Positions 49,410 through 52,919 of a DNA stretch of 64,000 bases are shown here, one piece after another (the first letter of the stretch is position 1; every line of letters begins with the position of its first letter). A program made the position numbers and the translations under genes. Source of the stretch: Castellaniella caeni NBRC 101664 (GTDB lineage: Bacteria; Pseudomonadota; Gammaproteobacteria; Burkholderiales; Burkholderiaceae_B); NCBI RefSeq assembly GCF_001592225.1, contig NZ_BCWN01000003.1:124001-188000 (forward strand), read 5' to 3'. The notes below the pieces were generated by a model, which was not told the origin of the DNA, made no database searches, and worked only from the letters and a program-made list of their open reading frames with translations.

Positions 49410-49757
49410 ATGGACGCACCCATGTATCCCCACGCCACCGCTGATCTGGCCAAGCGCCGCGCCGAACTGGCTCCCGAACCCCTGGCCGCCTTCAAGGCCT
49501 TCAGCAAGGCGGTCTTCGCCGCCGGCGCCCTCGACGCCAAGACCAAGCAGCTCATCGCCGTTGCCGTCGCCCACGTCACCCAATGTCCCTACTGCATCAA
49601 GGGCCACACCGAAGGCGCATCGCGCGCCGGGGCCAGCGACGCCGAAATCATGGAAGCCATCTGGGTGGCCGCCGAAATGCGCGCGGGCGGCGCCTACGCG
49701 CACTCCAACCTGGCCTTGCAGACACTCGAAAACCTGCACCCGCACACGCACCCCTGA
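49410..49757 (+). CDS. Carboxymuconolactone decarboxylase/AhpD-like protein
   Basis: 115-residue helical protein with the AhpD active-site motif CPYCIKGHTEGA (two Cys and a His). This supports a peroxidase or disulfide-reductase type activity rather than lactone decarboxylation. AAAGGAA precedes the ATG. It lies just before the ECF sigma gene on the same strand, but the sigma gene has its own promoter. Confidence 0.92.
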   Translation: MDAPMYPHATADLAKRRAELAPEPLAAFKAFSKAVFAAGALDAKTKQLIAVAVAHVTQCPYCIKGHTEGASRAGASDAEIMEAIWVAAEMRAGGAYAHSNLALQTLENLHPHTHP

Positions 49758-49854: not shown

Positions 49855-49887
49855 TGAAACGTTCATCAGGCTGCCGTCATCCAATGG
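49855..49887 (+). promoter_or_regulatory. ECF-type promoter of the sigma gene
   Basis: TGAAAC (49855-49860), exactly 17 bp, then CATCCAATGG (49878-49887), 25 bp before the GTG start. The same two boxes at the same spacing occur upstream of the cupredoxin operon. Box sequences are of ECF type (AAC-like -35, non-TATAAT -10). A small dyad GATGAA-ACG-TTCATC overlaps the -35 (49853-49867). Confidence 0.8.
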
Positions 49888-49912
49888 CATCACATGAATT
49901 TCCGGAGGCGAA

Positions 49913-50641
49913 GTGGACACCCAAATTCAGCACGACTTGAACACGGCCAACGACCTGTCGCTGATCACCCTGTGCGGCGCGGGTAATTTGAAAGCCTTTG
50001 ACGTCCTGATGAAGCGCCACAACCAGCAGTTGTACCGCGCGGCCCGCAGCATTCTTCACGACGAGGCCGAGGCCGAAGACGCCGTGCAAGAGGCCTGGTG
50101 GAAGGCCTTCCAGCACCTGCAAGACTTTCGCGCCGACGCCCAGGCCGCCACCTGGCTGACGCGCATCGCGGTCAACGAGGCGCTCATGCGCCGACGGCGA
50201 AACAAATCGCGCGAAACTATCATCCAATCGGCGTACCAGGTATCAGGCAATTCCGACAACATGCTCCCTCCCGGCGCTACCCTCCCCGCCCCAGAGTCCT
50301 CGCGGCCAGACCAGTCGGCCTGGCGCGCAGAACTGCGGCACAACATCGAACAGCAGATCGATGCCCTGCCGGACATCTACCGCACGGTCTTCATGCTGCG
50401 CGGCGTGGAAGAAATGTCCGCCACCGAAGTCGCCCAGGTACTCGACATCCCCGAAGCCACCGTGCGGGTGCGTTTCATGCGCGCCCGCCACCTGCTGCAA
50501 GCCGCCATGAAACACGACTTCGACCCCAAGGCAGCCAGTGCTTTTTCCTTTGCCGGTGAACGCTGCGCCCGCATCGTCGCCGGCGTGCACGCGCGCATGC
50601 GGGCCGCAGGGCTGCATCCCGAAGACGAAGCCTCGATGTAA
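49913..50641 (+). CDS. ECF-family RNA polymerase sigma factor
   Basis: 242 residues, GTG start with GGAGG at ideal spacing. Sigma-2 region (about 15-90) includes YRAARSILHDEAEAEDAVQE and WWKAFQHLQDFR. Sigma-4 (about 140-200) includes LPDIYRTVFMLRGVEEMSAT and a helix-turn-helix ending in FMRARHLL. A 40-residue C-terminal extension (FSFAGERCARIVAGVHARM) is not part of classic sigma-4. No anti-sigma gene is adjacent, so control may lie in the extension, its single Cys, or transcription. It appears to drive its own promoter and the convergent cupredoxin operon. Confidence 0.92.
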   Translation: MDTQIQHDLNTANDLSLITLCGAGNLKAFDVLMKRHNQQLYRAARSILHDEAEAEDAVQEAWWKAFQHLQDFRADAQAATWLTRIAVNEALMRRRRNKSRETIIQSAYQVSGNSDNMLPPGATLPAPESSRPDQSAWRAELRHNIEQQIDALPDIYRTVFMLRGVEEMSATEVAQVLDIPEATVRVRFMRARHLLQAAMKHDFDPKAASAFSFAGERCARIVAGVHARMRAAGLHPEDEASM

Positions 50642-50700
50642 ATATACGCACGCCAGCAGGCAGCAGGCGCACGGGCATGACGCACGACGTGTCGCGCTGC

Positions 50701-50753
50701 GCAAAAACCCCTCGGCAAACCAGGCTCACGTCTGGTTTGCCGAGGGGTTTTGC
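50701..50753. terminator. Long bidirectional terminator hairpin
   Basis: About 21 perfectly paired bases with an 8-nt loop (50724-50731), flanked by A and T runs. It separates the sigma gene and the convergent cupredoxin operon. The stem is unusually long for an intrinsic terminator. Confidence 0.88.
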
Positions 50754-50847
50754 ATGATGCGACAGGCGCTCGCGGCGGCTGGGCCGGGGCCGGCTGACCG
50801 CCCATGAACACGCGGCAGACACACGATCCAACGGCCCGCATCGCCGC

Positions 50848-51372
50848 CTAGTCGATACGCTTGCTTTTCAGGATGGCGGCGACATCGGGAAACTGCGCCA
50901 GCGCCACGGCGGGCAACTGCGCATCGGTGGCGGCATAGGGCTTGTGCGCGGCATCGGCCGTACCCACCACGATGCGCCCGACCATGCCGGCCATCTCATG
51001 CGGCAGGCAAAAGTAGTCGTACACGCCGGGCACACTCAGCACGACCTCGAACGACTGGCCGGGCAGCAGATAGCCGGAATCCCAAGGCGTTGCGCCATCC
51101 GGGATGCGCAGCGGCTTGTGGTTCTTGGGATGGTAGGCCGTGGTGGTGTGCGCATTGCCCGTGTCGCTGTTCACCCAGCGCACCGTCTGTCCCGGCTGAA
51201 TCAGCAGGCCATGGGGCCGAAACCAGACCTGGGAACCCGAAGGGGTGCCGGACATCTGGATTTCGACCGCCTCCGCCGCACCGGCACGCCGGATGACGGC
51301 TGCCGTCAGCAGCAGACCGCCGCCCATGGCCAGCAGACGGCGGCGCTGCGGGTTGAAGGCGGCGGTGCTCAT
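50848..51372 (-). CDS. Cupredoxin (plastocyanin/pseudoazurin-like) periplasmic protein
   Basis: 174 residues. A Tat-like signal RRRLLAMGGGLLLTAA is followed by a single type-1 copper domain. Ligands: His in NAHTTT, then Cys, His and Met in DYFCLPHEMAGM. Likely an electron carrier or copper-handling protein in the periplasm. Its ATG overlaps the stop of the upstream secreted-protein gene, and the pair is preceded by the ECF-type promoter. Confidence 0.9.
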   Translation of the reverse strand: MSTAAFNPQRRRLLAMGGGLLLTAAVIRRAGAAEAVEIQMSGTPSGSQVWFRPHGLLIQPGQTVRWVNSDTGNAHTTTAYHPKNHKPLRIPDGATPWDSGYLLPGQSFEVVLSVPGVYDYFCLPHEMAGMVGRIVVGTADAAHKPYAATDAQLPAVALAQFPDVAAILKSKRID

Positions 51373-51797
51373 TTGGCGACGCTCGCTTCCTGCGCGGCAG
51401 GCACGTTCCACAGAATGATGTGGATATGCGGCTCAGCCACGCCGGGGTGCCCCGCGTTGTACTGGATGTCCACGTGATCCACGTGGCCCGCGGGCGCTTT
51501 CAGATCCTGGAAGTGCATATCGGGCTTCATTTGCGCGATGGGGATCATATAGGTGGTGCTGACCAGCTTGCCATGGTGGTCGTAGCCCAGGAAGGGGCCG
51601 GCCGGCAGGGTGGACGGATCAACGAACAGCTGCCCCAGGCCGGGGATGAAATCAGGCAGCTTGACCAGCGAGCTGACGGCCTTGTAGGGGGCTGCGGGCG
51701 GGGCCTGCTCGACGGAGGTCTGCGCCGCATACGCGCCAACGGAACCCACGGATAGTGCCAGGGCGGCGGCCGCCGCGGTCAAGAATGAACGTTTCAT
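51369..51797 (-). CDS. Secreted protein with His-rich metal-like motifs (DUF5602/TTHB210-like)
   Basis: 142 residues with a Sec signal peptide (MKRSFLTAAAAALALSVGSV, cleaved after AYA). The mature part holds YDHHGKLVSTTYMIP, GHVDHVDIQYNAGHPG and EPHIHIILW, clusters of His and Asp suggesting metal binding. I think it belongs to the DUF5602 (TTHB210-like) family; in Thermus a homologue is reported to be controlled by an ECF sigma, from memory. GGAG before the ATG 51797. Confidence 0.7.
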   Translation of the reverse strand: MKRSFLTAAAAALALSVGSVGAYAAQTSVEQAPPAAPYKAVSSLVKLPDFIPGLGQLFVDPSTLPAGPFLGYDHHGKLVSTTYMIPIAQMKPDMHFQDLKAPAGHVDHVDIQYNAGHPGVAEPHIHIILWNVPAAQEASVAK

Positions 51798-51839
51798 GAG
51801 AATCTCCAGAAGCACGCAGCGCGAATCGCTGCTTTCAAC

Positions 51840-51872
51840 CCATTGGATGCAGCGCGCTGAAGATGTGTTTCA
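51840..51872 (-). promoter_or_regulatory. ECF-type promoter of the cupredoxin operon
   Basis: Minus strand: TGAAAC (51872-51867), 17 bp, CATCCAATGG (51849-51840), 43 bp before the ATG at 51797. Identical boxes and spacing to the sigma gene promoter at 49855-49887. The -35 overlaps the stop codon of the GlxA-type regulator gene. Confidence 0.8.
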
Positions 51873-52919
51873 GGGATCGGATAAAAAATTGGCGCCGGCG
51901 GCCGGTGGCAGGCCAGGCGCCTGCGCGACGGCCCGCAGGCCGTTGACGGTGCCACAGCGCCGCCGATATTCGCTGGGCGAGAGGCCGGCAAACGCCCGAA
52001 AATGACGACGCAGCGCCAGCGCCGACCCAAACCCCACCTGTGTCGCCACGTGCTCGACCGATTGGTCGGTGGATTCAAGCAGCTGCTGGGCGCTGGCAAG
52101 TTGCTGCTTGAGACGCCATTGCTTGACCGTCAGCCCCGTCAATTGATGAAAACGGCGGGTAAAGGTACGCACGGATACGTGCATGCGGTCGGCCAATATC
52201 TTCAGGTTTTGCTGCTCTTGCAGGTGCGTTCGCATCCAGACCAGCAAGCCCCGCAGCTCGCGGCTGCTGTCGTCAAGAAAAAAGGACGCGTCGATGTGCT
52301 GCCGCTGGTCACCATGGCGCAAAAGGCCCACGGCAAGACTGGCCGCCACCTGGTCGGCCACCGCGGCCCCGGCCAGATACCGCAGCAGCAAAAGGCACAG
52401 ATCGATCGCCGCACATCCCCCCGCGGAAGTCCAGAGATTGCCGTCGCGCACGTAGAGGATGTCGGGGTCGATGTCCACCCTGGGGAAGCGCTGGGCAAAC
52501 AGGCGGGAATACTGCCAATGCGTGGTCGCACGCCGCCCATCCAGCAGGCCGGCTTCGGCCAGGACAAAGCAGCCCAGGTGCAAGCCCACCACTTGCGCCC
52601 CTCGCGCGCAGGCCTGGCGCAAGGCTTGTTTCAAGGCCCGCGGCACCGGCGCATCGGGCCCAGGCCAACCAAGTACCAGAACGGCATCGGCGCTTTGCAG
52701 GTGCCCCAGCCCGGCTTCGGGCTGGATGGAAAACCCCGCCCCCGTTTTGATGACCCCGGCATCAACCGCCACACAGCGGACCTTGACGGCATTTGTGCCC
52801 AGGCTTTGAGGATCGAACACCATCAAAGGCCCGGCCAATTGCGTCGCCCCGATACCGTCGTAGACCAGCAGTGCAAGCTGGCGACGCGGCAGGCAAGGAT
52901 GATCAGGCTGGGCGAACAT
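51870..52919 (-). CDS. GlxA-type AraC family transcriptional regulator
   Basis: 349 residues: N-terminal DJ-1/PfpI-like domain (about 15-190, with the nucleophile-elbow-like VVGLHLGCFVLAEAGLL) and a C-terminal AraC double helix-turn-helix (about 230-330, SVRTFTRRFHQLTG and GFGSALALRRHFRAFAGLSP). Such regulators sense small metabolites; the ligand is unknown. ATG 52919 follows an ATTACA-TT-TGTAAT palindrome 4 bp upstream. The gene lies directly before the cupredoxin operon on the same strand. Confidence 0.9.
   Translation of the reverse strand: MFAQPDHPCLPRRQLALLVYDGIGATQLAGPLMVFDPQSLGTNAVKVRCVAVDAGVIKTGAGFSIQPEAGLGHLQSADAVLVLGWPGPDAPVPRALKQALRQACARGAQVVGLHLGCFVLAEAGLLDGRRATTHWQYSRLFAQRFPRVDIDPDILYVRDGNLWTSAGGCAAIDLCLLLLRYLAGAAVADQVAASLAVGLLRHGDQRQHIDASFFLDDSSRELRGLLVWMRTHLQEQQNLKILADRMHVSVRTFTRRFHQLTGLTVKQWRLKQQLASAQQLLESTDQSVEHVATQVGFGSALALRRHFRAFAGLSPSEYRRRCGTVNGLRAVAQAPGLPPAAGANFLSDP

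Follow-up and report, generated by a model that had tools for sequence, protein, structure and literature searches.

Which genes are read by the extracytoplasmic function (ECF) sigma factor encoded in a 64,000-nucleotide stretch of Castellaniella caeni NBRC 101664 (contig NZ_BCWN01000003.1, positions 124,001 to 188,000; hereafter the window), and what could control its activity? An initial annotation of this DNA had noticed the same two-box element upstream of the sigma gene and of a convergent operon for a secreted protein and a cupredoxin, and had proposed that the sigma factor transcribes both itself and this copper-protein operon. Based on sequence comparisons across relatives, we think it likely that the sigma factor directs RNA polymerase to TGAAAC-N17-CATCCAAT and transcribes its own gene, the DUF5602–cupredoxin operon and the ovothiol synthase gene ovoA, that its C-terminal tail acts as a gate, and that it also reads an extra site within its own gene. 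The genes and sites at the centre of this proposal are:

49855..49887, plus strand: putative ECF29-type promoter of the sigma gene, TGAAAC-N17-CATCCAATGG (exact pattern match)
49913..50641, plus strand: ECF sigma factor of 242 aa with a GTG start, RpoE8/ECF29-like (Pfam Sigma70_r2 and r4_2; NCBIfam; tree)
51840..51872, minus strand: putative ECF29-type promoter of the DUF5602–cupredoxin operon, TGAAAC-N17-CATCCAATGG (exact match; present at 24/30 family loci)
51369..51797, minus strand: DUF5602/TTHB210-like protein, probably secreted (Pfam PF18197; signal peptide by eye)
50848..51372, minus strand: plastocyanin/azurin-family cupredoxin whose N-terminus is twin-arginine-like (Pfam PF00127; twin-arginine by eye)

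Twin promoters and the predicted regulon

Both promoter sites were found exactly as annotated (TGAAAC, 17 nt, CATCCAATGG), and their spacers do differ, being unrelated in sequence. Within the window, TGAAAC-N15-19-CATCCAA matched twice, compared with 0 matches in 100 dinucleotide shuffles. The genome-wide search suggested in the initial annotation gave three matches in the whole 3.28 Mb genome, all with a spacer of 17, and none for the reversed control; the chance expectation per genome at uniform base composition is ∼0.1 for a fixed N17 and ∼0.5 for N15-19. When up to two mismatches were allowed, the genome contained 32 matches compared with 19 for the control. As this excess is modest, only near-exact matches are informative. 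A sigma-70 promoter scan returned no prediction at either of the two sites.

Conservation was examined in a genus set of 10 genomes (G000, the window genome, to G009), and the sigma factor was present in all 10. The pattern GAAAC-N16-18-CATCCAA matched 37 times in this set and its reversed control 0 times, while KGRAAC-N17-CATCYAA matched 21 times versus 1; four of the 37 matches had no assigned gene (G000:C23, G005:C26, which is coding, G006:2753379 and G009:C332). The motif lies directly upstream of the sigma gene in 8/10 genomes by pattern, and G007 has a one-base variant identified by eye. The DUF5602–cupredoxin operon is convergent with and adjacent to the sigma gene in the window genome, G001, G002, G003, G005 and G006 and lies apart from it in G004, G007 and G008, and a genome search did not find DUF5602 in G009.

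Across the family, DUF5602 occurs in 31/268 genomes, and the sigma factor (E 1e-50 or better, with at most 10 candidates scored per genome, to both of which 'no sigma hit' is relative) is present in 26 of these 31 compared with 17 of the 237 others (Fisher p 5e-20; counts tallied by hand). The 31 genomes provided 30 DUF5602 loci (G230 gave none), and in 24 of these the motif lies 74–86 nt before the DUF5602 start, 19 by the fixed-N17 pattern and five more by the 16–18 pattern, all five with a spacer of 17. In a sample of 61 family genomes, also split by hand, the motif was enriched over the control in the 18 sigma-bearing genomes (19 versus 5), whereas the remaining 43 showed no excess (8 versus 10). 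Comparison supports the proposal that the sigma factor transcribes itself and the copper-protein operon: relatives keep the predicted promoter at both genes although their spacers diverge, and motif enrichment in this sample is confined to the sigma-bearing genomes.

The regulon is predicted to be wider than had been proposed. The third genomic match (L261 1490-1519, on contig C24 of G000) precedes ovoA, whose product scored above the cut-offs of TIGR04344 (683.6 bits; cut-off 400) and TIGR04345 (339.9 bits; cut-off 170). It begins 211 nt upstream of the start codon used for ovoA, and there is an in-frame ATG farther upstream. The motif is found directly before ovoA in G000, G005 and G006 and, in G001, G002 and G003, before a flavin/NAD reductase-like gene with ovoA behind it, i.e. 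at ovoA directly or via the reductase gene in 6/9 ovoA-bearing genomes of the genus. In two metagenome-assembled genomes (MAGs; L103 and L106), a similar reductase-like frame follows a GGGAAT-type motif, and in L103 this frame stands directly before the sigma gene (likeness by eye). G007 and G009 have a similar motif before a DUF1775 gene (L050, L051). The reductase-like gene and, in these two relatives, DUF1775 are candidate members of the regulon alongside ovoA, and there is also a site within the sigma gene.

Several further observations concern these loci. On the far side of the ovoA motif in G000 is a divergent 481-aa reading frame that appears membrane-like by eye, and in G009 a CopC-like frame seems, also by eye, to come after the DUF1775 gene. 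GAAAC-N16-CATCCAA precedes SbmA/BacA-like ABC transporter genes in G000, G005 and G006 (L067, L049 and L071; Pfam for L067 of G000 only), which were not counted as targets because of the spacer of 16. In G004 (L039 10208, minus strand) and Paralcaligenes (L098 7582, minus strand), a motif of this kind, convergent to the sigma gene, stands before a gene for a small membrane protein; neither site has the DUF5602–cupredoxin pair, and in G004 a DUF2231-like protein comes next (by eye).

Within the operon of the window, the DUF5602 protein matches the Thermus TTHB210 structure (PDB 3vg8, E 1.3e-22), and the cupredoxin start overlaps the stop of the upstream DUF5602 gene. Directly upstream of the DUF5602 promoter is an FtrA-like AraC/DJ-1 regulator gene (51870-52919, minus strand) with an NCBIfam score under the FtrA cut-off. 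Between the convergent genes there is a strong inverted repeat, which is probably their shared terminator; a simple terminator scan reported nothing there.

50704..50751, no strand assigned: strong inverted repeat between the convergent genes (folding −55 kcal/mol for 50690-50765, z −9.8)

The C-terminal tail and the ECF29 family

How might such a sigma factor be regulated? In agreement with the initial annotation, no anti-sigma gene was seen among the annotated neighbours of the sigma gene (small open reading frames were not scanned), which are the convergent operon downstream and a CMD/AhpD-like gene upstream that also adjoins the sigma gene in G001, G002, G003, G005 and G006. The annotation had instead pointed to a 40-residue C-terminal extension with a Cys. 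This extension is present, with its Cys, and is longer than stated, at ∼50 residues past region 4.

50489..50638, plus strand: C-terminal extension, residues 193-242, with an FxFAGxRC motif and the Cys218 codon at 50564-50566 (tail alignment)
49410..49757, plus strand: CMD/AhpD-like gene, upstream neighbour of the sigma gene, with no motif of its own found (Pfam PF02627)

Cys occurs only at positions 21 and 218 of the sigma factor, and Pfam detects the sigma regions only, with no match to the short tail. Comparison of the tail across homologues, which the initial annotation had also suggested, demonstrated that the Cys is kept: GxRC occurs in the last 60 residues of 48/51 sigma rows (45 distinct sequences, the window's own sigma factor included) and in 0/21 paralogue rows. 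This count excludes the further relatives L112-L176 (33–40% identity), and three rows were set aside beforehand, namely L099, which a contig end truncates, the frameshifted L110, and L111, an Acidobacteria sigma factor of 202 aa that is only distantly related and whose frame has no GxRC tail. The conserved tail Cys fits, without showing, a regulatory role.

The sigma factor scored 260.4 bits against NCBIfam NF008888 (cut-off 204), and among relatives with a named record the closest (81%) comes from a Castellaniella MAG. To place it more broadly, we compared it with RpoE8 (SMb20592) of Sinorhizobium meliloti, which the relevant part of PMC6180224 assigns to group ECF29. There, a start mapped upstream of rpoE8 goes with the promoter GGGAAC/GCATCCAA, the same promoter precedes the neighbouring blue-copper operon SMb20593-amcY, no anti-sigma factor is known, and the control of RpoE8 is termed a mystery. 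In the part of a review that covers the groups without anti-sigma factors, ECF29 is listed in Table 2 under 'Others' (PMC8999054); we read this block of 15 groups as predicted regulatory extensions, matching it to the 15 extension groups that the review describes as still to be studied. A term search did not find ECF29 in PMC3817407 or PMC10880074.

In our tree, RpoE8 grouped with the window sigma factor and its relatives, apart from 20/21 paralogue rows (branch 97/88, with a long-branch warning); the exception was L014, a second copy in G004. The two proteins share 37% identity and similar tails (FSFAGERCARI in the window and FPFAGKRCERL in RpoE8, whose locus was read from pSymB). Likewise, the −10 core is identical, while the −35 is TGAAAC here and GGGAAC in several relatives, and the sigma factor combines a C-terminal extension with the lack of an annotated anti-sigma neighbour. 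Based on this grouping and the promoter form, we classify the sigma factor as ECF29-like. Since an ECF29 sigma factor with the same promoter is published, the regulon is not of a new kind.

The two systems share a promoter before both the sigma gene and a blue-copper operon, the FxFAGxRC tail and no known anti-sigma factor. They differ in that the operon is downstream of rpoE8 and convergent here, with GGGAAC there and TGAAAC here as the −35, and in the partner of the cupredoxin: SMb20593, which we had expected to be a DUF5602 protein, is DUF4142. Neither an ovoA target nor an intragenic site is mentioned in the relevant part of PMC6180224. At the TTHB210 locus of Thermus thermophilus HB8, a DUF5602 gene again has an ECF-type sigma gene as its neighbour, although that locus has an annotated anti-sigma gene and the Thermus sigma factor has no GxRC tail. 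In T. thermophilus, sigma-E controls TTHB210; our literature search matched nothing for TTHB210 or DUF5602.

Other ECF groups fitted less well. ECF26 was our first guess, but its published consensus GGAATA/GT does not fit, whereas that of ECF29 does. ECF41 was hinted at by the CMD-like neighbour, and resembles this system in having no anti-sigma factor, a regulatory C-terminal extension and a CMD-like gene as both neighbour and target. However, the ECF41 extension is SnoaL-like and its promoter is different, whereas Pfam found no such domain in the short tail here. CorE of Myxococcus (formerly ECF44) likewise has an extension with Cys and a link to copper, but CorE-type sensing involves a Cys-rich domain and a CXC linker motif, in contrast to the one conserved tail Cys here.

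A conserved site inside the sigma gene

Although both annotated sites were confirmed, a further match within the sigma gene had been overlooked:

50198..50227, plus strand: intragenic match, CGAAAC-N17-CATCCAA, in the linker after region 2 (pattern scan; one mismatch from TGAAAC)

This site is present in 10/10 genus genomes and in 13/31 orthologue rows scanned. When the near-copies L006 and L213 were dropped, 11 site-bearing genes remained, all in one 16-row clade in which five rows have no site. We examined codon use in seven species (7 of the 11 site-bearing genes) at 105 columns with an invariant residue. Only 14 columns had one codon throughout, and the rarest two of these codons, CGA (codon 96) and CAA (codon 105), belong to the −35 and −10 boxes of the intragenic site. 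The probability that all four site columns fall among the 14 uniform ones is 2e-4 (2e-5 with the neighbouring AAA), values calculated after the fact for a site picked before the test and with columns that are not independent. In 13 genes (L009 codon usage stood in for L211 and L212), random synonymous recoding created the site in 0.1–2.9% of trials per gene, and permuting each gene's own codons did so in 0.5–6.2%.

The codon at position 96 also differed with promoter type. The seven genes from species with GAAAC-type promoters have CGA, while four genes with a GGGAAC promoter of their own (L011, L012, L013 and L214; that of L013 was found by eye and has a one-base variant −10) have CGG or AGG, giving GGAAC. 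The −35 inside the gene therefore tracks the −35 outside it, although one switch on the tree may account for this difference. The −35 classes are not strict, since GAAAC occurs at the DUF1775 sites of G007 and G009. In L211 and L212, the residues are kept with a CGC codon, and there is neither an intragenic site nor a motif upstream. We interpret the codon conservation as selection for a promoter, and the intragenic site is probably read by the sigma factor itself.

A competing and, in our view, doubtful explanation is that the site is not a promoter and that its codons are conserved for the sake of the encoded RNKxRExxIQ, or because rare codons here cause a pause between domains 2 and 4. CGA and CAA are indeed less used codons at a domain boundary, and the residues persist in the site-less L211 and L212 (with Q for K in L211), as does an in-frame Met after the site. 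However, CGA is fixed at codon 96 (7/7 genes) even though the adjacent Arg codons 94 and 95 vary, and a rare-codon pause does not predict CGG or AGG in genes with GGGAAC promoters. Similarly, any of I, H, L, V or F can precede IQ, yet the codon for this residue always ends in C in the 11 site-bearing genes, and the site seldom arose by recoding or codon permutation.

If the intragenic site is a promoter, its product may include a protein. In 10/11 site-bearing genes, an in-frame ATG follows the start of the site by 63 or 69 nt, and in the eleventh by 36 nt; this is weak evidence, since two site-less genes have the ATG as well. We raise, as an unlikely idea, that the intragenic promoter yields a separate region 4 and Cys-tail protein (∼112–129 aa) that would restrain the full-length sigma factor, negative feedback thereby replacing an anti-sigma factor. 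Among the matches listed in our literature search, no title or abstract opening described a sigma-read promoter inside its own sigma gene. A parallel is SigR′ of Streptomyces, which is made from a self-driven promoter. There, as envisaged here, one sigma gene makes two protein forms, but SigR′ is described as an unstable isoform that amplifies the response (relevant part of PMC4921905), whereas the internal site here would give a fragment without region 2.

Alternative readers and the proposed role of the regulon

The two outer promoters could instead be recognised by a different sigma factor or a DNA-binding activator, with the adjacent sigma gene merely one of its targets. We consider this very improbable, despite another ECF gene in the genome and motif-bearing DUF5602 loci that have no sigma gene in the locus, because the published ECF29 motif is nearly identical (relevant part of PMC6180224), the two-box form with 17-bp spacing is that of an ECF promoter, the sigma factor and DUF5602 co-occur, and the motif is enriched only in the sigma-bearing genomes. 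The ovoA site of G000 could separately be a chance match, given that it is farther from its start codon than the sites at other genes and that ∼0.1 to 0.5 random matches are expected per genome. This too is improbable, as five other genus genomes carry the motif at ovoA or reductase–ovoA, in two arrangements.

Several results nevertheless weigh against a regulon read by this sigma factor. There is no motif before ovoA in G004, G007 and G008, which also favours the chance explanation, and none directly upstream of the sigma gene in G004 and Paralcaligenes. The operon adjoins the sigma gene in only 6/10 genus genomes, and 6/30 DUF5602 loci have no motif (G046, G050 and G164 with no sigma hit; G219 and G223 with a distant sigma; G222 with an adjacent sigma gene). 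In G110 the opposite holds: DUF5602 has the motif in front of it, yet the genome gave no sigma hit at E 1e-50, as would fit another regulator. Across all 61 sampled genomes, the motif occurred 27 times compared with 15 for the control. In S. meliloti, no target responded when RpoE8 was overexpressed, not even a gene whose motif is perfect (relevant part of PMC6180224), which likewise suits a different reader and means that a promoter match alone is no proof. The redox interpretation of the regulon rests on gene names.

Taking these points together, we still favour the ECF29-like sigma factor as the reader of its own promoter. Active sigma factor would transcribe its own gene, giving positive feedback, together with the DUF5602–cupredoxin operon, acting in the periplasm, and ovoA, acting in the cytoplasm, as a response to redox or copper stress. 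In place of an anti-sigma factor, the gate is probably the conserved C-terminal tail and its Cys. The intragenic site, probably read by the same holoenzyme, would give a short transcript of the sigma 3′ half ending at the inverted repeat.

Within the literature searched, DUF5602 and ovoA are new as predicted targets and the intragenic site is also new, while the family itself is known. The comparative regulon names concrete targets (DUF5602–cupredoxin, ovoA and the reductase), and hence stresses to try, and it would tie a bacterial ovothiol gene to a dedicated sigma factor. The intragenic site looks like a promoter kept via synonymous codons inside the gene of its own reader and, if it works, could explain in a testable way how the sigma factor is controlled with no anti-sigma factor.

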